Positions 40,286-63,925 of a stretch of 64,000 bases of DNA are shown here, piece by piece. Both the position numbers and the translations under genes were made by a program. Under the pieces are notes generated by a model. It was not told the DNA's origin and did no database searches. It worked only from the letters and a program-made list of their open reading frames with translations. How positions within the stretch are numbered: position 1 is the stretch's first letter; each line of letters begins with the position of its first letter. Origin of the DNA: Sipunculus nudus (lineage: Eukaryota; Annelida; Sipuncula; Golfingiida; Sipunculidae); assembly GCA_026874595.1 (NCBI GenBank), contig CM049318.1:13125241-13189240 (forward strand), in the 5' to 3' direction.

Positions 40286-40876
40286 ATGTGTTACTATGTA
40301 AAACATATGTCTTTGATATTGTCAGTTTTATTATTCTGTATTAGATCCATTTGTGACCCATGTTCATACTCATATACATGGAGCATGAAGCACTGTGATG
40401 GTTCAGCTGACAAACTGAGGGCAAATATGCGAGGCCTTGTAGAACATTATAAGGGGAACCATGCTAACTGCTTTCCAACTACTAGATGCAAGGAAGAAGG
40501 TGCCCTTTATGAAACAAAATGTTTGATTACAGACCATAAAGCAGACCAGATGCTAATGAAAGGCATCACAGGCCTCAGGGTGTACAAGAATGCTGAAGAC
40601 TTTATATTGTGCCAGAACACCCATTATGTTGAGTCCTTTAACAATGCCTGCTTAATTTACCATGATAAAAAATTAAGGATCTCATTTGACTATGATGAGT
40701 ATCAACGCCGCAGCAACATGTCAGTAATTAAGTGGAATGAAAACGTGGACAGAGAAATTACATCAGTGTCTAACAGAGTGTCTGTTAAAAAACCACAAAG
40801 ACAACAGGGACAGAAAATTTTAAAAGAAAAACAACTTGCATTCTTTGACACAATTTGGGAACATTTGATAATGTAA
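40286..40876 (+). CDS. C-terminal part of an unnamed, probably transposon-derived protein
   Basis: 196 codons, ending TAA. The convincing part starts at residue 20 (RSICDPCSYSYTW), right after a possible acceptor (ttctgtattag), so the N-terminus is probably on lost or unseen exons. Landmarks are KHCDGSADKLRANMRGLVEH (36-54), Cys/His residues at 62-68, CQNTHYVESFNN at 109-120, and WNENVDRE at 150-157. From memory, a widespread animal family of long, often transposon-linked proteins has the same order: a C-GD-W/H block, a QTS-x-x-E-[AS]-F-[HN] motif and an HYNEN motif. Its function is unknown to me. The region 39650-39950 also holds a 76-codon ORF with no recognised domain. Confidence 0.5.
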   Translation: MCYYVKHMSLILSVLLFCIRSICDPCSYSYTWSMKHCDGSADKLRANMRGLVEHYKGNHANCFPTTRCKEEGALYETKCLITDHKADQMLMKGITGLRVYKNAEDFILCQNTHYVESFNNACLIYHDKKLRISFDYDEYQRRSNMSVIKWNENVDREITSVSNRVSVKKPQRQQGQKILKEKQLAFFDTIWEHLIM

Positions 40877-45584: not shown

Positions 45585-45715
45585 TGCTGCACAACGAGAT
45601 CTGTATAGGTGCAGCCATCTTTGTTTACACGCTAAGCCAATAAGATTTTGTTTTACGAGATTCCCATTGGCACAACCATCTTTGTTTGCACGCTGAGCCA
45701 ATCAGGTTTTATTTT
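45585..45715 (+). promoter_or_regulatory. tandem CCAAT-containing duplication upstream of the TRIM gene
   Basis: Two diverged copies of about 62 bp, each with CATCTTTGTTT, CACGCT and GCCAAT. Their position some 450 bp before the TRIM exon and the CCAAT boxes suggest a promoter-proximal role, but there is no TATA box and an element fragment (45880-46092) lies between. Confidence 0.35.
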
Positions 45716-45879
45716 ACTCAGCTTGATGTTTGGCTGCTTGCCAAACCTGAAGAATCTATCCATTTGTCACAGTATGTGAGTGGAAGGTTTCCTCGAGGTC
45801 ACGTGCTGTGTATCCTGGCTGTTTTGACTACTGGATAATCTAGTATATAACGTGTATAGTAACCATCCAGCCGGATGCT

Positions 45880-46092
45880 TGGCAAGAAACAAATCCTAAG
45901 CTTTAGACCTAGGATGTTCATGGGGGCACTGAAAATCACTGTCCTTATGGAAAAACAAAAACTTTCATGTAGTTGGGTTATGTGACCTCTCCTTGTAAAC
46001 CCCAAATTATGTCACATTATATATATGGGCTCATGACCTTTAGAAATATGTCATATTCAGCTGGTCATCATGGCCCATTCGTCATTTCTTGA
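45880..46092 (+). mobile_element. 3' fragment of a hairpin-ended element
   Basis: Contains CTTTAGACCTAGGATGTTC, AAACCCCAAATTATGTCAC, and an end CAGCTGGTCATCATGGCCC, then ATTCGTCATTTCTTG, resembling the ends of types 1 and 2. The 5' hairpin is absent. Confidence 0.5.
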
Positions 46093-46150
46093 AATTTATG
46101 CAATGTAACGTTAGGAGATGTGCTTCATTTCTTTCTCTCTCTCATTACAG

Positions 46151-48025
46151 AAAGACAACATTATGGCGTCATTGAGTACCAGACAGCTGCTTGAATGTTC
46201 CATCTGCCTTACAGAGAAAGTTGGCAAAACACCGCGATCACTTTGCTGTCTACATTCTTTCTGTCATAACTGCCTTGTCACTTTGTTTGATGCCACCGCC
46301 ACCCGCAATAACACAGGGGGCCTGTTAAAATGCCCGGTGTGCCGTCGTGTCACTCGTATACAAGGTGGGGTTGAAAGCTTACCTGTTGACTTCAGACTTC
46401 AAGATATGGCTGATTTAATCAATCAGACTCAAGACGCATGTCAGTGCCGCCCATGCCAACAAAAAGGTATCACCAGTCTGGCAAAATCTGCATGTATGAA
46501 GTGCAACTCTGTTTATTGTGAAAAATGTTCAGTAGAACACACAAAAGTTGCCTTGTTCTCCAAACATAAGATGGTGAATGCATTTTGAGAGCAGCACGGA
46601 AGGCCATTTAGTTATATCTGTGAGACATGCATGGCCGGGATTTGTTCAGACTGCATAACTGCAGGGGCACATGCCAATCATGTTCACACGAAGGTGAAAT
46701 GCGGACGTAAATTGGTGACCAAAAAGATGACAGCCACTATTACTAAAATGAACAATGCTACGCAAATTCTGGAACAGTATATCAACATTAAAAAAGAAGA
46801 AAGTGAAGTTAAAAGGCCAAGATTTGAGGCGCAAATAAAGTTACAAGGAGAAAGAGTGAAGGCTAATGTTGATAGGATGGTTGAGGAAACTATCAGGCAG
46901 CATGAAGAGAATCAGTCTGCGTCATTTGAACGATTGTTTCAAGTCTACCACGAAGCTTGTGACAAGACCGCACAGATTGGGGCAGCAGAAGCATTACTCA
47001 GCATGGATTCAGGGGACTTCTTGGCAAATTTACATTCTGTTGATGCTAGCCTTCAAGCAGAGATGAATCAGATAGAAAAACTAGGAAAATCTCTCCCGGA
47101 CCCTTCACTCCATTCACATACTGAATGTAGTTTGAGGCTGGTTAGCAAACGTGCTGGTTCACAGGCCAGATGTGGTTTGGATTGTGTCTTGGCAGGATTG
47201 GAGAGACCAAGATTGCAAAGAATGCTTGATATTGACTGTTCCGTCACCCTTCCTGAACAGCAAAGTCCTTTCTGGGTCAGTGTCACTTCAGATGGGTCCG
47301 CTGTGGTGAGCCATCGGCAAGGTAATGTCGTTCATAAAATCAAAATTTGTGGAATGCCGTCTAAGATCTATGATGGCCATCGTGTGTGCGGCACCTGTGT
47401 TGATGATGAAGACAATATATACATAGCACAAGATAATGGCTGTGCAGTCATCAAACGTAATCCGTTGGGGAGATCTTTCATAATGAAACTGAATTCTGCT
47501 TTACAGCGCATCAGTGATATCAAAGTCAAAGGCAATGACCTCTTTTTATCAAGTGGAAGTGGAATCTTTACCCGCTCACTCTCCAGTCATGGAGGAGAAG
47601 AAGTCTTGAATTTACCCAATTCTCATTACTTCACTATTACTGAAAACCCTCTCTCTGAGGTCAAATTTATCGTCACAACCTGGGACACACATGAAGTCAA
47701 GTTTTATGATACCAATGGCAATGAGATAAACCAGATGGGAGACCAGAGCAGACCTGAACTTAAATTCAGCGCCCCAATGGGTATCACACAACTTGCAAAT
47801 GGCCATTTCCTTGTTGCTGATTATCATAACAGTAGAATTGTGGAGTTTCTCATTGATGGTAGTTTTGTCAGAGACCTGTTGTCAAGAGATAATGGTTTGC
47901 GTTTCCCAACTGGTATTGCTTATATACATCCATATCTGTGGGTTTGTGAAAGCAATCGTACCGAAAACTTGAGGAAGATCAAACTTTTCAAATTTGTTGC
48001 TCCGCCTTCACAGACACGCCAATAA
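46151..48025 (+). pseudogene. TRIM-type RING/B-box/coiled-coil/beta-propeller protein with one in-frame TGA
   Basis: TRIM proteins with this layout are usually RING E3 ubiquitin ligases, with the propeller binding RNA or protein. The exon starts after a pyrimidine-rich acceptor (ctctctcattacag). ATG 46163 has G at +4 and gives 620 codons. The RING finger spans residues 12-60 (CSIC, CCLHSFCHNC, CPVC). B-box 1 spans 93-135 (CQCRPC, CMKC, CEKC). B-box 2 spans 142-173: C153, C156, C161, C164, H170 and H173 are present, but its first Cys position, codon 142, is TGA (46586-46588). A coiled coil covers about 185-280 and an NHL-like propeller about 355-610, with repeats such as FSAPMGITQLANGHFLVADY. 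The frame is otherwise intact to TAA at 48023, so decay is either very recent or absent. Alternatives are selenocysteine, readthrough, a polymorphic null or a base error. Confidence 0.85.
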
Positions 48026-49200
48026 ATAGTTGGTTGTTATTTACAAGCCTACCACAGGCGACTACAGACTGAACGTCCTGCCGTTGTCTTCTGAGAGGCC
48101 TTAGGAGACATGGCGGACAAACTTGAACTGTATATTATGCATGAAATAGACTTGAACTTGTCTTCAAAACTGAACTTTATATTGTGCATGGACTAGAATA
48201 TAACGCTATTGCCTTATATGTGACTGCGGACTCTAACTTAATCTGGTGTCTGTGGGCTTCATTCTGCAGTAACCATGGATGTTTGGGAAAATTACTGGAA
48301 TGCAAATCACTAACCTTCGTTTTCTATCTTGATCATATTTTGTGCTATAGAAGTCTTGTTCCCTGCTCTGGAAAGAATTGGACAAGATCTCAATGTCAAA
48401 TATGCAAGAGTAATGAAACGGGGGGAAAACAAAATTTCATATAAATGTTTATAATCTGGTCACTGTTTATGCTATAGAGATCTAGTATATAGCTTTGGGT
48501 GGCATAAGACAAGCTTTTAGGGATACAATTGATCTCGTATGTGTTTAAAGAGAATGAACAGGACTTTCATGCTGGACAGTGCCATATTTGTTCTTACACT
48601 GACACTTGATATATGATATTCCGCAACCGAGAATTGACGAGATTCAAGCAAATGTTCACCTGATATACTGAGCTTTTATTGTAGAAAGAATTGGCAGGTT
48701 GTTTTGGGAGGCACGGAATAAGCTTTCAGTTATGAAGTTGCGGGTATCTCTTAACATCTCCAGTTTTTGGTTGAAAGGGGAAAAAATGAACAGATCATTG
48801 TAATGTGGTGCAAAATGTACAGATTTACATTGCATTGTATAGCCTTTGAAAACTTCTTGATTCTTTATTTTATCACATCTCGTAAATCTTTACCTAAATG
48901 TGAATTCTTTGATATCTTTACCTTTGCCTGTGTGGGAGGGCTGGCGACTTCGGCTTGGAAAGGGATAGAGGAATTAGGGTTTCAATACACGACTGTATAT
49001 AGATTACTGGACGATTTTGTGTATAGATTATTGAACATATATGTGTAATCAAGTGTTGATATTCAGATCCTAGTATATACAAGAAGTTACATTGGTTACT
49101 AATTAACTGTTGATTGAGCGGATTATTTAGGATTTAGACGAGTCTTTTATCTGTTTCTTTAAAAAAATCATTCATACTATTAAAGTTTTACTGATAAAGT
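48026..49200 (+). other. probable 3' UTR and flank of the TRIM gene
   Basis: No coding stretch follows. AATAAA overlaps the stop codon (48021-48026) and ATTAAA lies near 49180 as a possible distal polyadenylation signal. I saw no convincing SECIS element by eye, but such structures are easy to miss. Confidence 0.4.
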
Positions 49201-50216
49201 ATTCTGCGCTGCTGTTACATTATCTTTTCTACGGTCTGTTGGTTTCTAGTTTCCGCTTTATATTAACTTTCTACCGAGTTTCGCTTTTCTTACCTAAATC
49301 CTGCTTCTCTAACACCACTGTATTTACTCTGTCTGTCTGACTGTCTCTCTCTCTCCGACATTTTCTAACATTTAAACACCGACTCAGGGCTAACATTAAC
49401 AGAGATTCAATGGATACACTTAAGTAAATATTCAAATTATACCAGCCGGATATGGCATAGTCCATGATATAACTTGCTCCACTGGTCAAAGGAAACCTAG
49501 TTATCTCATTCGCAAAACCTAATTACCTGTAGACATTATTACTTGCTTGTGATATTTCGTCCATCAATAGAGACTGATTCTGGATATCACGATCCACTCT
49601 GTGCTTATATAATTTTATATATATGTGTGTGTACATATTCTCTGATAAGGTGTTTAGCATTGGGATTTGAGTGCCATTTACCTTTACACCCGGATAAAAA
49701 CCTGGATCTGTTGTGTCTTTTGTTTAATAAATGCGCCTTTTACACATATCTGACTTTGAGTTATTATCTGTGGGAATTAATCAAGTGTGTGTCTGTGTGT
49801 TTATTTGAAATAAGTGCTTTTGCCCACAAAGGACTTTAAATACTTGCCTCATTAAATAGTTATGCACTATACTCAACTTTATCTAATGACGTTACATGCA
49901 AAGTACATGCGATTTGTCCTCACATTTGAATGTTGATGGTGCACGGTGAACTGTTCTTTTGTGTCACAAACACTGTTGCCCACCATTATAAACAAACTAT
50001 AATAGTACCAAATTATAAGCAGAGGTATTTATAAACAGAGGTATTTTCTAAAATACTTGGACTTTTCTAAAATATGTATAAATAGTGCGTAAATTATGCT
50101 TCATTTGTTGATCAAAGAAATACTATAAATCACACTGTCCCTCATCGGTGCATATTTTGCGGGTAAACCACAAATGTGACATTCTGTTCACATGTAGAGC
50201 AGTGTTGACAGAGACC
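49201..50216. other. no gene recognised
   Basis: Short ORFs only. The window before the minisatellite is AT-rich and featureless. Confidence 0.5.
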
Positions 50217-51690
50217 AGCACTTCTGTAAATGTTCTACCGCCTAGGTCAAAGTGCAGATCCTCAATCTCCAGGTCAGAGTGCAAGTCGTATGTGTCAGTA
50301 GGTCATTCTTCATTCTCCGGATCAAAGTGCAAGTCCTTACTCTCCATGTCTGTGTGCCATTCCTCATTCTCAAGAGTCAAGAGTGCGCGTCTCTGCTCTC
50401 AAGTTCAGACTGCAAGTCCTCACTCTTCGTGTCGAGTGCAAATCCCCACTTTTCCAATCTCTCAGAGTCAAGTGTGCAAGTCCTCATTCCAGGCCAAAGT
50501 GAAAGTTTTCACTCTCCCAATCTCTCTTGGTTAGAGTACCCTCCTCACTCTCCTGGCCAGAACGCAAGCCCTTACTCTCAAAATCTCTCCAGGTCAGAGT
50601 GCAGTCCTCACTTTACTGGCCAGAGTGCAAGACCCCACTCTTTATTTCAGAGATCATGTCCTCACTTCAAGGATCATCGGGGCAATCCCCACTCTTCCAA
50701 TCTCCCGGGCAGGGTCTGCTTTCTCCGTGTCAGAATCTCCATTTTTTTCAAATCTTTCAGGTTCAGAGTGCAGGTCCTCATTCTGTGTTTCAGAGTACTA
50801 TCTTCCTTTCTAGTCGGTGCAAGTCCTCGCTCTCCCTGGCTTTCCAGGTCCGACGAGAGGTAGTAACTCTCTATTTCTCTAGTGCAAGTCCTCACTCTCC
50901 AAATCTTTCTAGGTCAGAGTGGACTTCTCACTCGCCTGGACAGAAAACAAGCCCTTATTCTCCCAATCTCTCCAGGTCAGAATACAGACCTCTCTCTCCT
51001 GACCAGAGTGCAAGACTCCACTCTCCTGGTTATGGGGCAAGTCCTCACCCTCCGCTTCAGAGGTCATGTCCTCACTTTAAGGGTCAGAGTGCAAGTCCCC
51101 ACACTTCCAGTTTCTCAGGTTCAAGAGTGTTAGTTCTCATTCAAAATCAAGTGCAAGCCACCACTCTCTGTGTCAGAGTCCCCTTTTTTCCAAAATCTCG
51201 GGGACAGAGTGCAAATGCTCATTCTTTGATTCAGAGTACACATTCCCATTCTAGCCAGAGGGCAAGTCCTTACTCTCCCAATCTGTTGAGATCAGAGTGC
51301 ATATCCTCAATCTCTCTTTGGTCAGAGTGCAAGTCTTCACTCTCCAGGTTAAGTGCAATTCCTTACTCTCCCAATCTTTCCATGTCAGAAGAGAGATACT
51401 TACTCCCTGGGTCAAGATCCAAGTTCTCACTCTCCCAATCACTCTAGGCCAGAGTGCACCACTCACTTTAATGGCCAGAATGCAATACTTTGTTCTCCCA
51501 GTCACTCGAGTTCAGAGTGCATGTCCTCACTCGCCCAATCTCTCGGGGGTCAGAGTGCAGTAATCACTCTCCTGGCCAGAGTGCAAGACCCCGCACTGCT
51601 GGTTATGGTGCAACTCCTCTCCGCTTCATAGCTCATGTCCTCATTTCAATGGCCGAATGCAATTTCCAATCTCCGAATCAGATTCCCCAT
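50217..51690. repeat. diverged minisatellite with higher-order structure
   Basis: Units of roughly 36-40 bp with the core AGAGTGCAAGTCCTCACTCT and spacer CCCAATCTCTCCAGGTC. Blocks of about 400-500 bp recur in the same internal order (near 50507, 50907 and 51430): CTGGCCAGA, a TTCAGAGRTCATGTCCTCA segment, a CCATTTTT-like segment. Forward ORFs of 203 and 306 codons overlap in different frames over it. That is expected of a stop-poor repeat whose unit length is not a multiple of three, so I do not call them genes. Confidence 0.8.
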
Positions 51691-51694
51691 TTTT

Positions 51695-52320
51695 AGTTCA
51701 GCTGACTATAAGTCAACTGAGCTGTAGCGAAGGTCCTTTGTCCGTCGGCGTCCGTCCTTCGGCTGTTATCCATCGGCTGTCCGTCCTTCTGTCCGACCGT
51801 TAAACTGGCACGTTTTGAAACCGTTGGACCTACGAATCTAAAATTCGGCACACAGATGTCCCCAAAATCTCCTACTGTACAGAAATCTGGTCAATATGAC
51901 TTCATTCCTTCGAGATACCCTCAGTTTTCCATTAAACCCCCATTATCGCACTTCAGGACAGCCTAATATCAAAACCACTGATCTGTTTTTGGTCATATTA
52001 AGTTTCCATATTTTTCTATACATTTTCTATTCACATACCAGAAATTAGGTCAATATTGCGTAATGTGTTGAAGTTATGGGCCCGAACTTAATGCACCTTG
52101 TAAAAAAATCAGGAAATACATCTACTCACTAACATGAGAATTGCCTAAGCTAGAGACCTTTTTCAGGGATATAACTTCATTTAATCAAAATTTAATTGTA
52201 TACCGAAAATTAGATCTGAATTTTTCAAATTTTATAAGTTATTACCATTAATATAAAATCAGTACCTTACATTTTGTCCAACTTTGACTGTTGATTTAAT
52301 TTTCATAAGAAAAAGCAGGA
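51695..52320 (+). mobile_element. hairpin-ended element, type 2, copy 4
   Basis: Starts AGTTCAGCTGACTATAAGTC after a T-run that itself ends the minisatellite unit (CCCCATTTTT), so the insertion went into the array. GTCCGTCGGCGTCCGTCC follows, then both type 2 modules. It stops near 52320 without a CTTG end. Confidence 0.7.
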
Positions 52321-52470: not shown

Positions 52471-52558
52471 GCTCCAGTTGCACAATCGGTTAGCGCGCCG
52501 TACTTATAATCAGTTATGAGGCATGCGGAGGTTGTAAGTTCGATCCTCACCCAGAGCA
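52471..52558 (+). tRNA. tRNA-Ile (UAU anticodon)-like gene with intron, possibly a pseudogene
   Basis: Starts GCTCCAGTTGCACAATCGG and ends CCAGAGCA. The anticodon stem CCGTA/TGCGG pairs fully around the loop CTTATAA, which is split by a 14-base intron after position 37, the canonical site; animal tRNA-Ile(UAU) genes typically have an intron there. The B box GTTCGATCC is good. Mismatches occur in the acceptor stem (two), D stem (one) and T stem (one). A TTTTT at 52562-52566 would end Pol III transcription. The fold is largely intact, but the mismatches suggest decay. Confidence 0.7.
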
Positions 52559-54231: not shown

Positions 54232-55980
54232 TTCCGGAGTCCGCCTGCCTAGTATCCACTTGGGACCTCCTCCTGGATTCAGCCTGTTATCCGGAGTCCG
54301 CTTGTGATCTCTGGAGTCCACCTGCATGGTCTCCGCTTGGGACCGGAGTCCGCTTGTGATCTCCGGAGTCTGCATGGTCTCCGCTTGGGACCGGAGTCCA
54401 CTTATGATCTCCGGATTCCGCCTGCATGGTATCCGCTTGGGACCTGAGTCCGCTTGTGATCTGGAAATTCTGCCTGCATGGTATCCACTTGGGACCGGAG
54501 TCCGCTTTTGATCTCTGGAGTCCGCCTGCATTATCTCTGCTTGGGACCGGGGGCTGCTTGTGATCTCCAGAGTCCGCCTGCATGGTATCCACTTGGGACC
54601 GGAGTCTGCTTGTGATCTCCGGAGTCCGCCTGCATGGTCTTAGCTTGGGACCGGAGTCAACTTATGATCTCCGGGGTCCGCCTACATGGTCTCCGCTTGG
54701 CACTGGAGTCCGCTTGTGATCTCCTGAGTCCGCCTGCATGGTCTCCGCTTGGGACCGGAGTCCGCCTGTGATCTCTGGATTCCGCCTGCATGGTCTCCTC
54801 TTGGACCTGGAGTCTGCTTGTGATCTCCGAAGTCCGCCTGCATGGTCTCCGCTAGGGAACGGAGTCCGCCTGTGATCTCTGGAGTCCGCCTGCATGGTCT
54901 CCGCTTGGGACCGGAGTCCCCCTGTGATCTCCGGATTCCGCAAGCATGGTCTCCTCTTGGACCTGGAGTCTGCTTGTGATCTCCGGAGTCCGCCTGCATG
55001 GTCCCCGCTTGGGAACGGAGTCCGCCTGTGATCTCCGAAGTCAGCCTGCATGGTCTTCGCTTGGGACAGGAGTCTGCTTGTGATCTCCGGAGTCCGCCTG
55101 CATGGTCCCCGCTTGGGACCGGAGTCCGCCTGTGATCTCCGGATTCCGCCTGCATGGTCTCCTCTTGGACCTGGAGTCTGCTTGTGATCTCCGAAGTCCG
55201 CCTGCATGGTCTCCGCTTGGGACCGGAGTCCGCCTGTGATCTCCGGATTCCGCCTGCATGGTCTCCTCTTGGACCTGGAGTCTGCTTGTGATCTCCGAAG
55301 TCCGCCTGCATGGTCTCCGCTTGGGAACGGAGTCCGCCTGTGATCTCCGGAGTTCGCCTGCATGGTCTCTGCTTTGGACCGGAGTCTGCTTGTGATCTCT
55401 GGAGTCCGCCTGCATGGTCTCCGCTTGGGACCGGAGTCCACCTGTGATCTCCAGAGTCCACCTACATGGTCTCTGCTTGGGACCGGAGTCCGCTTGTGAT
55501 CTCCGGAGTCCGCCTGTGATCTCCGGAGTCCGCCTGTGATTTCCGGATTCCACCTGCATGGTCTCCGCTTGGACCTGCAGTCTGCTTTTGATCTCCAGAG
55601 TCCGCCTACATGGTCTTCGCTTGGGAACGGAGTCCGCCTGTGATCTCCGGAGTCAGCCTGCATGGTCTTCACTTGGGACCGGAGTCCGCTTGTGATTTCT
55701 GGAGTCCGCCTGCATGGTCTCCGCTTGGGACCGAAGAACGCTTGTGATCTCTGGAGTCCGCCTGCATGGTCTCCGCTTGGGACCAGAGTCCGCCTGTGAT
55801 CTCCGGAGTCCGCCTACATGGTCTCTGCTTGGGACCGGAGTCCGCTTGTGATCTCCGAAGTCCGCCTGTGATCTTCGGAGTCCTCCTGCATGGTCTCCGC
55901 TTTGGACCTCCGCCCCGGAGTCCGCCTGGGATCTCCAGCGTCCGCCTTGGACTTCGGGAGACCTCATGGGACCTCCGCAG
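54232..55980. repeat. 52-bp GC-rich tandem array, about 33 units, higher-order A-B-C pattern
   Basis: The unit GCCTGCATGGTCTCCGCTTG + GGACCGGAGTCCGCCTGTGA + TCTCCGGATTCC is 52 bp. Between 54733 and 55370 distinct variants A (CTTGGGACCGG), B (CTCTTGGACCTGG) and C (GGGAACGG) recur in the order A-B-C or A-B. The unit has no stop on the minus strand in any frame and 52 is not a multiple of three, so minus ORFs of 336, 259 and 172 codons overlap in different frames. These are treated as by-products. Confidence 0.9.
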
Positions 55981-59600: not shown

Positions 59601-60148
59601 CTGGTCACAAGGACAAAGGAACCAGAAATATATTGTTTTGCATTCTATGGCACGAAGGAATATTTGTAAATTGTAAGGCAAAGTGTATAATTTGTTTCAT
59701 ATGTGTACATCATTTATAAAGTTATAACGGGGGTGGGGAAGGGTGGGGGGCAGGATATATGAACTGAGGCTTCGATGCAGACATTTAGTCTTTTCTCCAG
59801 GTGATAATAGTGATAACATTACAAAACAAATCACAAAAGTGCCAGCAATATACAAAAATCGCATTACGACTATTGTTTTTGCATTTATATTCAATCTATA
59901 GATGTAATCTTCTTAAAAATATTTTTTGTTCCACATGTAATTTATTCACTTGTCTATTAATTGAACTCTTGCAATTGTAAAGATCTTTTTAACACAATGA
60001 AATATGAACTCGACAGAATTAAACGTTTACATAAAAAAATACCATATTATTAATTATCATACGTAACACCCGAAATTCCAGTTTCGTTAACAATTACATT
60101 GCCATCTGTGTGTTTCATGTGATTATTTTAATATATCTATTCTTTTTA
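59601..60148. other. no gene recognised
   Basis: AT-rich with a G-rich tract at about 59728-59752. Confidence 0.5.
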
Positions 60149-62935
60149 ACGTCGTTTCCACCGCTCCTGTGACCTGAATAAGTCACGTTCACTGGTAACC
60201 AACATGATAAATCATTCCTGTCTGACACGCCATATGTCCTTGAAACGTGGATGTCTGCGGCGTTTCTTTAAAACGTCGTTTCCACCGCTCCTATGACCTG
60301 AATAAGTCACGTTCACTGGTAACCAACATGATTAATCATTCCTATCTGACACGCCATATGTCCTTGAAAAGTGGATGTCTGCGGCGTTTCTTTAAAACGT
60401 CGTTTCCACCGCTCCTTTGACCTGAATAAGTCACGTTCACTGGTACACAACATGATAAATCATTCCTGTCTGACACGCCATATGTCCTTGAAACGTGGAT
60501 GTCTGCGGCGTTTCTTTAAAACGTCGTTTCCACCGCTCCTATGACCTGAATAAGTCACGTTCACTGGTAAACAACATGATTAATCATTCCTGTCTGACAT
60601 GCCATATGTCCTTGAAACGTGGATGTCTGCGGCGTTTCTTTAAAACGTCGTTTCCACCGCTCCTATGACCTGAATAAGTCACGTTCACTGGTACACAACA
60701 TGATTAATCATTCCTGTCTGACACGCCATATGTCCTTGAAACGTGGATGTCTGCGGCGTTTCTTTAAAACGTCGTTCCAACCGCTCCTGTGACCTGAATA
60801 AGTCACGTTCACTCGTAAACAACATGATTAATCATTCCTGTCTGACACGCCATATGTCCTTGAAACGTGGATGTCTGCGGCGTTTCTTTAAAACGTCGTT
60901 TCCACCGCTCCAATGACCTGAATAAGTCACGTTCACTCGTAAACAACATGATTAATCATTCCTGTCTGACACGCCATATGTCCTTGAAACGTGGATGTCT
61001 GCGGCGTTTCTTTAAAACGTCGTTTCCACCGCTCCAATGACCTGAATAAGTCACGTTCACTGGTAACCAACATGATAAATCATTCCTGTCTGACACGCCA
61101 TATGTCCTTGAAACGTGGATGTCTGCGGCGTTTCTTTAAAACGTCGTTTCCACCGCTCCTATGACCTGAATAAGTCACGTTCACTGGTAAACAACATGAT
61201 TAATCATTCCTGTCTGACACGCCATATGTCCTTGAAACGTGGATGTCTGCGGCGTTTCATTAAAACGTCGTTTCCACCGCTCCTATGACCTGAATAAGTC
61301 ACGTTCACTGGTACACAACATGATTAATCATTCATGTCTGACACGCCATAATCCCTGAAACGTGGATGTCTGCGGCGTTTCTTTAAAACGTTGTTTCCAC
61401 CGCTCCTGTGACCTGAATAAGTCACGTTCACTGGTACACAACATGATTAATCATTCCTGTCTGACACGCCATATGTCCTTGAAACGTGGATCTCTGCGGC
61501 GTTTCTTTAAAACGTCGTTTCCACCGCTCCTATGACCTGAATAAGTCACGTTCACTGGTACAAACCTGATAAATCATTCCTGTCTGACACGCCATATGTC
61601 CTTGAAACGTGGATGTCTGCGGCGTTTCTTTAAAACGTCGTTTCCACCGCTCCTATGACCTGAATAAGTCACGTTCACTGGTAAACAACATGATAAATCA
61701 TTCCTGTCTGACACGCCATATGTCCTTGAAACGTGGATGTCTGCGGCGTTTCATTAAAACGTCGTTTCCACCGCTCCTATGACCTGAATAAGTCACGTTC
61801 ACTGGTACACAACATGATTAATCATTCATGTCTGACACGCCATATGTCCTTGAAACGTGGATGTCTGCAGCGTTTCTTTAAAACGTTGTTTCCACCGCTC
61901 CTGTGACCTGAATAAGTCACGTTCACTGGTACACAACATGATTAATCATTCCTGTCTGACACGCCATATGTCCTTGAAACGTGGATGTCTGCGGCGTTTC
62001 TTTAAAACGTCGTTTCCACCGCTCCTTTGACCGGAATAAGTCACGTTCACTGGTAAACAACATGATGAATCATTCCTGACTGACACGCCATATATCCTTG
62101 AAACGTGGATGTCTGCGGCGTTTCATTGAAAACGTCGTTTCCACCGCTCCTGTGTCCTGAATAAGTCACGTTCACTGGTAACCAACATGATTAATCATTC
62201 CTGTCTGACACGCCATATGTCCTTGAAACGTGGATGTTTGCGGCGTTTCTTTGAAAACGTCTTTTCAATCGCTCCTGTGACCTGAATAAGTCACGTTTAC
62301 TGATAAACAACATGATTAATCATTCCTGTCTGACACGCCATATGTCCCTGAAACGTGGATGTCTGCGGCGTTTCTTTAAAACGTTTCCACCGCTCCTGTG
62401 ACCTGATAGACACATTCACTAGTAAACAACATGATTAATCATTCCTGTCTGACACGCCATATGTCCTTGAAACGTGGATGTCTGCGGCGTTTCTTTGAAA
62501 ACGTCGTTTCCACCGCTCCTGTGACCTGAATAAGTCACGTTCACTGGTAAACAACATGATAAATCATTCCTGTCTGACACGCCGTATGTCCTTGAAACTG
62601 AATGTCTGCGGCGTTTCTTTGAAAACGTCGTTTCCACCGCTCCTGTGACCTGAATAAGTCCAGTTCACTGGTAAACAACATGATTAATCATTCCTGTTTG
62701 ACACGCCATATGTCCTTGAAACATGGATGTCTGCGGCGTTTCTTTGAAAACGTCGTTTCCACCGCTCCTGTGACCGGAATAAGTCACGTTCACTGGTAAA
62801 CAACACGATTGATTGTTCGTGACTGACACGCCATATGTCCTTGAAACGTGGATGTCTGCGGATTTTCTCTGATAACGTCGTTTCAACCGCTCCTGTGACC
62901 TGAATAAGTCATGTTCACTGGTAAACAACATGATT
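60149..62935. repeat. 124-bp satellite array, about 22 copies
   Basis: ACGTCGTTTCCACCGCTCC recurs every 124 bp from 60149. Copies are nearly identical in the middle and more diverged from about 62250 rightward. Each monomer contains ATGATTAATCAT (perfect palindrome), GTGAC...GTCAC, GAAACG...CGTTTC, and AAACGTCGTTT, so it can form several small hairpins. ORFs over it are artefacts. Confidence 0.95.
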
Positions 62936-63925
62936 ATGCGCAAAAATGAAGGATATCTCACGACAGGAGATCGCGCGAAGCAGACGTGGAACCGGGCCAA
63001 ATTGCAAATCTTCCTTGTGAACGAAAGGGAAGCGCCCGAGGCACACATAAATGGGAAAGGCCAAGAATAAGGCAAAAAAAGGAACAGATGTCTACTGGCT
63101 GGGGAGATCGCGAGGCAGACTTGGTACCGATCAAATTCCACACACCTTTGACAGAAATGTTTCGGGACAAGCGCATAAGCGAAGAAGATGAACCGGGCCA
63201 GAAACCCCGCGTCTATGTAAAGGACAGGAGAGAGAGCGAGGCAGACACTGAACCAGGCCAACTATCACGCAAAAATGAAAGGATGTTTAGCGACAGGCGA
63301 ACCTGAAACAGACTTTGAACCGAGCCAAAAACCACACCATTCTGTAAAGGACGGGGGAGAACACGACTTGGTACCTATCATCTTCCACGCACGTATAAGG
63401 AATATTTCGGGACAAGAGGGCGCGCGAATCCGACTTTGAACCGCGCCAATACCGACGCCTGTATGTAAAGGACAGGAGGGAAAGCTAGACTGACCTGGAA
63501 CAAGGCCAGCTGCAACGCAAACATGAAAGGGATGTCGATCTACATGAGAGCGCCAAGCACACTTGGAACCGGGCCAAAACCACACCTCTCTGAAATGGAC
63601 AGGGGACAGCACGACTTGGTACCGATCAACTTCCACGCACCTATGAAAGGGTTGTTTCGGGAAAAAAAAGGACATGCGAAGCAGACTTGGAACCGGGCCA
63701 ATAATAACACCTCCGTATAAAGGACAGGAGAGAGCACGACTTGGTACCGGTCTACCTCTACGCACCTATAAAAGTAATGTTTCCGGACACGAGCGCGAAG
63801 CAGATTTGGATCCGGGCCAACTACCACGCATCTATGTAGGCGACATGAGAGACCGCGAGGCAGAATTGGAACTGTATGGGCTACAACGCAAATATGAAGC
63901 CTCGCATAACCCCAGTGTTGATTAG
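62936..63925. repeat. diverged tandem array, about 60-66-bp unit
   Basis: Begins abruptly inside the last satellite monomer (AACATGATTA/TGCGC). Units share GGACAGGAGAGAGC, GAAGCAGACTTGGAACCGGG-like, a CCAACTACCACGCA-like segment and TATGAAAGG. Two alternating types (TTGGAACCGGGCCAA and TTGGTACCGATCAA) imply a two- or three-unit higher-order repeat. Minus-strand ORFs of 198, 166 and 139 codons are by-products. Confidence 0.8.

Follow-up and report, generated by a model that had tools for sequence, protein, structure and literature searches.

The locus described here raises the question of what an in-frame TGA means when it occupies a zinc-binding position of an otherwise open TRIM-NHL gene: a plain loss of function, an error in the assembled sequence, or a codon that is still decoded. 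The window, that is, the whole stretch of 64,000 nucleotides of Sipunculus nudus DNA that was analysed, corresponds to C13:13125241-13189240, and the genome searched for relatives of the gene was the window's own assembly, 1.43 Gb in 153 contigs. Very probably, the TGA is a recent nonsense mutation in one copy of a tandemly duplicated TRIM-NHL gene, which would make this copy a young pseudogene or a segregating null allele.

In regard to the gene itself, positions 46163-48025 of the forward strand hold one open exon that runs from ATG to TAA over 620 codons plus the stop and is broken by a single internal stop, the TGA at codon 142 (46586-46588). The preliminary description had counted 141 codons before this TGA and 478 after it, and both counts were confirmed in the sequence. 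The assignment to TRIM-NHL genes follows from the reading of the frame, from Pfam and from sequence relatives in the PDB. The upstream frame of 141 residues (46163-46585, forward strand) carries a RING domain (PF00097, residues 12-60, 25.4 bits at a cut-off of 21), with TRIM2 and TRIM56 as its sequence relatives in the PDB, followed by a probable B-box 1 at about residues 95-135. The Pfam match of the latter is weak (PF22586, 18.2 bits at a cut-off of 27), and it is recognized by its Cys/His pattern, which is shared by 17 or more of the 20 distant paralogues compared. B-box 2 (46580-46690, forward strand, residues 140-176 on read-through) scores 29.9 bits with PF00643 (cut-off 24.1) only if codon 142 is read as Cys; taken by itself, the piece after the TGA reaches 24.0 bits and narrowly misses the cut-off. 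According to the Pfam model and the paralogue alignment, the remaining ligand positions of B-box 2 are kept, and the spacing read from the translation, 142-x2-H145-x7-C153-x2-C156-x4-C161-x2-C164-x5-H170-x2-H173, fits the motif given earlier, so that the TGA indeed stands for the first zinc ligand. Beyond it, an ORF of 464 codons starting at Met157 (46631-48025, forward strand) holds the rest of B-box 2, a coiled coil presumed from its position, and the NHL part, with one repeat detected by Pfam (PF01436, residues 536-562, 30.1 bits at a cut-off of 20) and with TRIM2, TRIM3, TRIM71 and Drosophila Thin as sequence relatives in the PDB.

No special cause has to be invoked for a TGA at a Cys codon. 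Both TGC and TGT lie one step from TGA, which makes the position unremarkable: elsewhere in the frame there are 251 one-step routes to a stop, 30 of them at Cys codons, and among the 252 routes counted with codon 142 included, 18 (7%) fall at zinc-ligand Cys codons.

The gene belongs to a large family. Matches to the TRIM-NHL protein in the genome amount to at least 92 scored for the downstream part and at least 150 for the upstream part; in 149 of the latter 150, frames of at least 560 codons were found 78 times and frames of fewer than 300 codons 31 times, where some of the short frames may reflect introns or another architecture. Nine copies form a cluster on one strand, at 13.17-13.64 Mb of C13, with the window gene as its outlying member. 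Over the aligned gene, the eight other copies are 96.6-99.0% alike among themselves and 87.9-88.5% identical to the window copy. One of the eight, L046, aligns with each of the seven others over about 7-9.5 kb including the gene, mostly at 90-97%, which identifies these eight as recent segmental duplicates. Outside the gene and a flank of about 300-350 bases on its upstream side, alignment of the window copy with the cluster is confined to pieces, at 65-78%. An excerpt of one published source places NHL-bearing TRIMs, with TRIM2, TRIM3, TRIM56, TRIM71 and TRIM32, in subfamily C (classes VII and X) and presents TRIM genes as prone to rapid tandem expansions (PMC3503706); for bivalves, a tabulated excerpt of another source gives B-box and RING orthogroups (PMC8382680).

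Among the eight other copies of the cluster, two carry frameshifts. In the numbering of L046, the first (L040, G000:C13:13246453-13248263) has a 1-base deletion near 621 and another near 1802, and the second (L047, G000:C13:13642848-13644707) has a 1-base insertion near 358 and a 1-base deletion near 1684, as well as its own in-frame TGA at a different codon, ahead of its frameshifts. Three of the nine cluster copies, the window copy included, are thus interrupted, so that a nonsense change in this cluster comes as no surprise.

At the site of codon 142, all eight other cluster copies have TGC (Cys), the codon of the two frameshifted copies being placed by DNA alignment. The comparison was extended to 20 full-length distant paralogues (24-30% identity), chosen from 81 matches outside the cluster by score and long open frames; 19 of them have TGC or TGT, and the remaining one, L063 (G000:C12:11173500-11176000), has TAC. 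To offset this choice, 21 distant loci that matched best in the N-terminal part were added, frames with interruptions being admitted; 8 of these loci had already been read, and the 13 additional distinct loci all have TGC or TGT. Among the distant paralogues, TGC or TGT is thus found in 32 of 33 and TAC in one, and, with the eight close copies, the 41 distinct paralogues read comprise 40 with Cys, one with Tyr and none with TGA. The proposal, made in the preliminary description, that a Cys codon was recently turned into a stop is therefore supported, the disabling change being private to the window copy and missing from its sisters. L063, a TRIM-NHL paralogue of full length in which Tyr replaces the first zinc-ligand Cys of B-box 2, shows that a gene whose frame is otherwise open can lose this ligand.

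That the gene was under purifying selection in the past is clear from its comparison with the six cluster copies that have no stop before codon 600 (four of which end a few codons before the end of the window frame). Against these six sisters, dN/dS is 0.320-0.352 at a dS of 0.250-0.263, with 0.229-0.271 ahead of the TGA and 0.345-0.378 beyond it, values which span the whole divergence and not the time since the stop arose. Being well under 1, dN/dS marks the long frame as a product of selection, beyond what chance would give. On the protein tree, the summed branch of the window copy from the node shared with the sisters is 0.104, compared with 0.069-0.079 for the six sisters, a mild excess that may come from constraint already relaxed ahead of the stop, or simply from variation in rate. 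The window copy shares a mean identity of 0.280 with the 20 distant paralogues, and the sisters 0.282-0.284; 94 columns are conserved in 17 or more of these 20, of which 81 are retained by the window copy and 81 or 82 by each of the six sisters. Up to residue 173, the only Cys/His column at which the window copy deviates is H42, where the sisters deviate as well.

No second lesion, either stop or frameshift, was found in the window gene across 46163-48025, suggesting that the stop arose late. In a simulation of neutral decay with 60% transitions and 0.11 indels per substitution (a rate taken from the ratio between recent cluster copies, three quarters of the indels being assumed to shift the frame), the chance of seeing no second lesion fell to 0.043 after 25 substitutions (0.013 per site) and to 0.1% after 60. 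If the branch of the window copy is about half of dS (some 0.13) and no selection acted later, the stop would have arisen in about the last tenth of that branch. The assumed indels weigh heavily in this bound: when stops are the only lesions counted, the frame escapes another stop with a probability of 0.39 after 25 substitutions and of 0.036 at 100 (0.054 per site), and the bound loosens to about 0.05 per site, or roughly two fifths of the branch.

What the interrupted gene would produce can be predicted from its structure. A pyrimidine tract followed by CAG at 46140-46150 (forward strand) is a probable 3′ splice site of a putative 5′-UTR intron, and since its AG is found at the same place in all nine cluster copies, the window gene may still be transcribed. 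Downstream, a possible 3′ UTR of about 48026-49750 would result if the AATAAA at 49726-49731 (forward strand) serves as the poly(A) signal; ATTAAA motifs occur at 49179 and 49851. Ribosomes would be expected to stop at codon 142. Exon-junction-dependent mRNA decay should not be triggered here, as the coding region is one exon and the only putative intron lies upstream. The mRNA may therefore yield a stub of 141 residues with RING and B-box 1. TRIM proteins act as dimers, and a stub that has neither coiled coil nor NHL part would not be expected to function like a normal TRIM. With unbroken paralogues still present, the animal probably tolerates losing this copy.

Several features were observed in the remainder of the window. 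A satellite with a 52-bp unit in about 31 copies occupies 54291-55868, where the window is richest in GC, and the long minus-strand ORFs at 54662-55672 are probably not genes, as they lie inside it. Another tandem array, with a 124-bp unit in about 23 copies and 94% match, is found at 60140-62936, followed by an array with a 125-bp unit at 63555-63787. At gathering cut-offs, Rfam gave a single match over the whole window, a tRNA at 52471-52558 (33.1 bits at a cut-off of 29), which was not called by ARAGORN and may be a tRNA-derived SINE. For an ORF of 196 codons at 40286-40876, a Pfam search up to E 0.1 gave no match.

Alternatively, the TGA could be an error of base calling or assembly, the gene of the animal being intact with Cys at codon 142. 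Such an error would agree with the single base that separates codon 142 from that of all eight sisters, and equally with the otherwise undamaged state of the gene. However, the contiguity of the assembly suggests modern long reads, in which few such errors would be expected, and the different breaks in the two frameshifted copies speak for gene loss as a common event in this cluster. We therefore consider an error unlikely, though deserving of some weight, and the nonsense mutation probably an allele of the animal.

Against the nonsense mutation it can also be argued that a recoded gene would likewise show an otherwise open frame. One such possibility is that UGA readthrough, or reinitiation at Met157, still provides a useful product. 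The 464 codons open from Met157, with the dN/dS of 0.345-0.378 that covers this pair of branches, would suit a translated downstream part. The context of the Met157 AUG is divided, with a favourable G at +4 and an unfavourable T at -3, and reinitiation after a frame as long as 141 codons is usually poor. Furthermore, a sense codon in 41 of 41 paralogues means that no such mechanism was inherited, and leaky or split translation appears highly improbable. A literature search for stop codons or readthrough in TRIM B-boxes gave nothing relevant, as judged by titles and abstract openings.

Selenocysteine inserted at codon 142, yielding a selenium-containing B-box, was also raised as a possibility in the preliminary description. 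An in-frame TGA with an open frame beyond it, as expected of a selenoprotein gene, is present in the window copy, and it falls at a Cys position. Moreover, the animal probably makes selenoproteins, since its genome contains a glutathione-peroxidase exon with a TGA in the context VNVASK-TGA-GFTDKNY, which we take to be the selenoprotein motif of this enzyme; a search for the SelK family gave one partial exon. Decoding of UGA in eukaryotes requires a SECIS element, according to an excerpt of PMC2746813. In 48026-52000, a stretch that contains the likely 3′ UTR, no SECIS was found by Rfam or by a strict stem scan, a negative that is weak without a positive control. The Rfam search, extended to E 10 over 45600-52000 by a method without validation on a true SECIS here, gave a single match, a snoRNA far below its cut-off. 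The strict scan of 48026-52000, likewise with no validated positive control, returned 0 candidates, where 50 shuffles gave 0.78 on average (range 0-5), and a looser scan returned one weak candidate at 48530, whose stem is missing from the minimum-energy fold of the surrounding 85 bases.

The SECIS_1 model had no match at E up to 0.001 over the whole genome (150 of 30,293 candidates scored) and none in 14 control genomes. Three pieces downstream of the glutathione-peroxidase exon held no SECIS by Rfam, the last exon of that gene not being found. In L071, the best stem-scan candidate (L071:1175) lies within a stable hairpin with SECIS-like features at L071:1166-1230, downstream of glutathione-peroxidase exons. 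This hairpin is possibly due to chance and is not tied to the glutathione-peroxidase gene; with 7 candidates over the 8,000 bases of L071, the strict scan is non-specific.

A stronger argument than these SECIS negatives is the complete lack of TGA among the 41 paralogues. Taken together with the lack of a SECIS match in searches that had no working positive control, it leaves the proposed selenocysteine very unlikely, to a degree at which we give it next to no weight. The same near-negligible probability applies to a lineage-specific selenocysteine that replaced the zinc-ligand Cys of B-box 2 and relies on a SECIS that escaped the scans through its divergence or its distance downstream. Judged by titles and abstract openings, the literature searched contains no selenium-containing TRIM. 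The TGA would have wider importance only if it were fixed, common to other species and decoded, and no finding points in that direction.

Compared with known systems, the window copy resembles eukaryotic selenoproteins in having an in-frame TGA where relatives have Cys. It differs from them in that no SECIS was found for it, no paralogue shares the TGA, and the position is a structural zinc ligand. Its architecture is that of TRIM-NHL proteins, with RING, a probable B-box 1, B-box 2 and NHL part in the same order, although the window copy is interrupted and belongs to a large expansion in its own genome. The nonsense mutation favoured here has its counterpart in duplicate pseudogenes and null alleles of birth-and-death families, which share with it unbroken sisters, a private lesion and past constraint. 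The window copy differs from these in having one lesion only so far, which suggests that it is very young or polymorphic. As a nonsense allele, it would represent a further case of gene loss in a fast-duplicating TRIM array of the invertebrate type.
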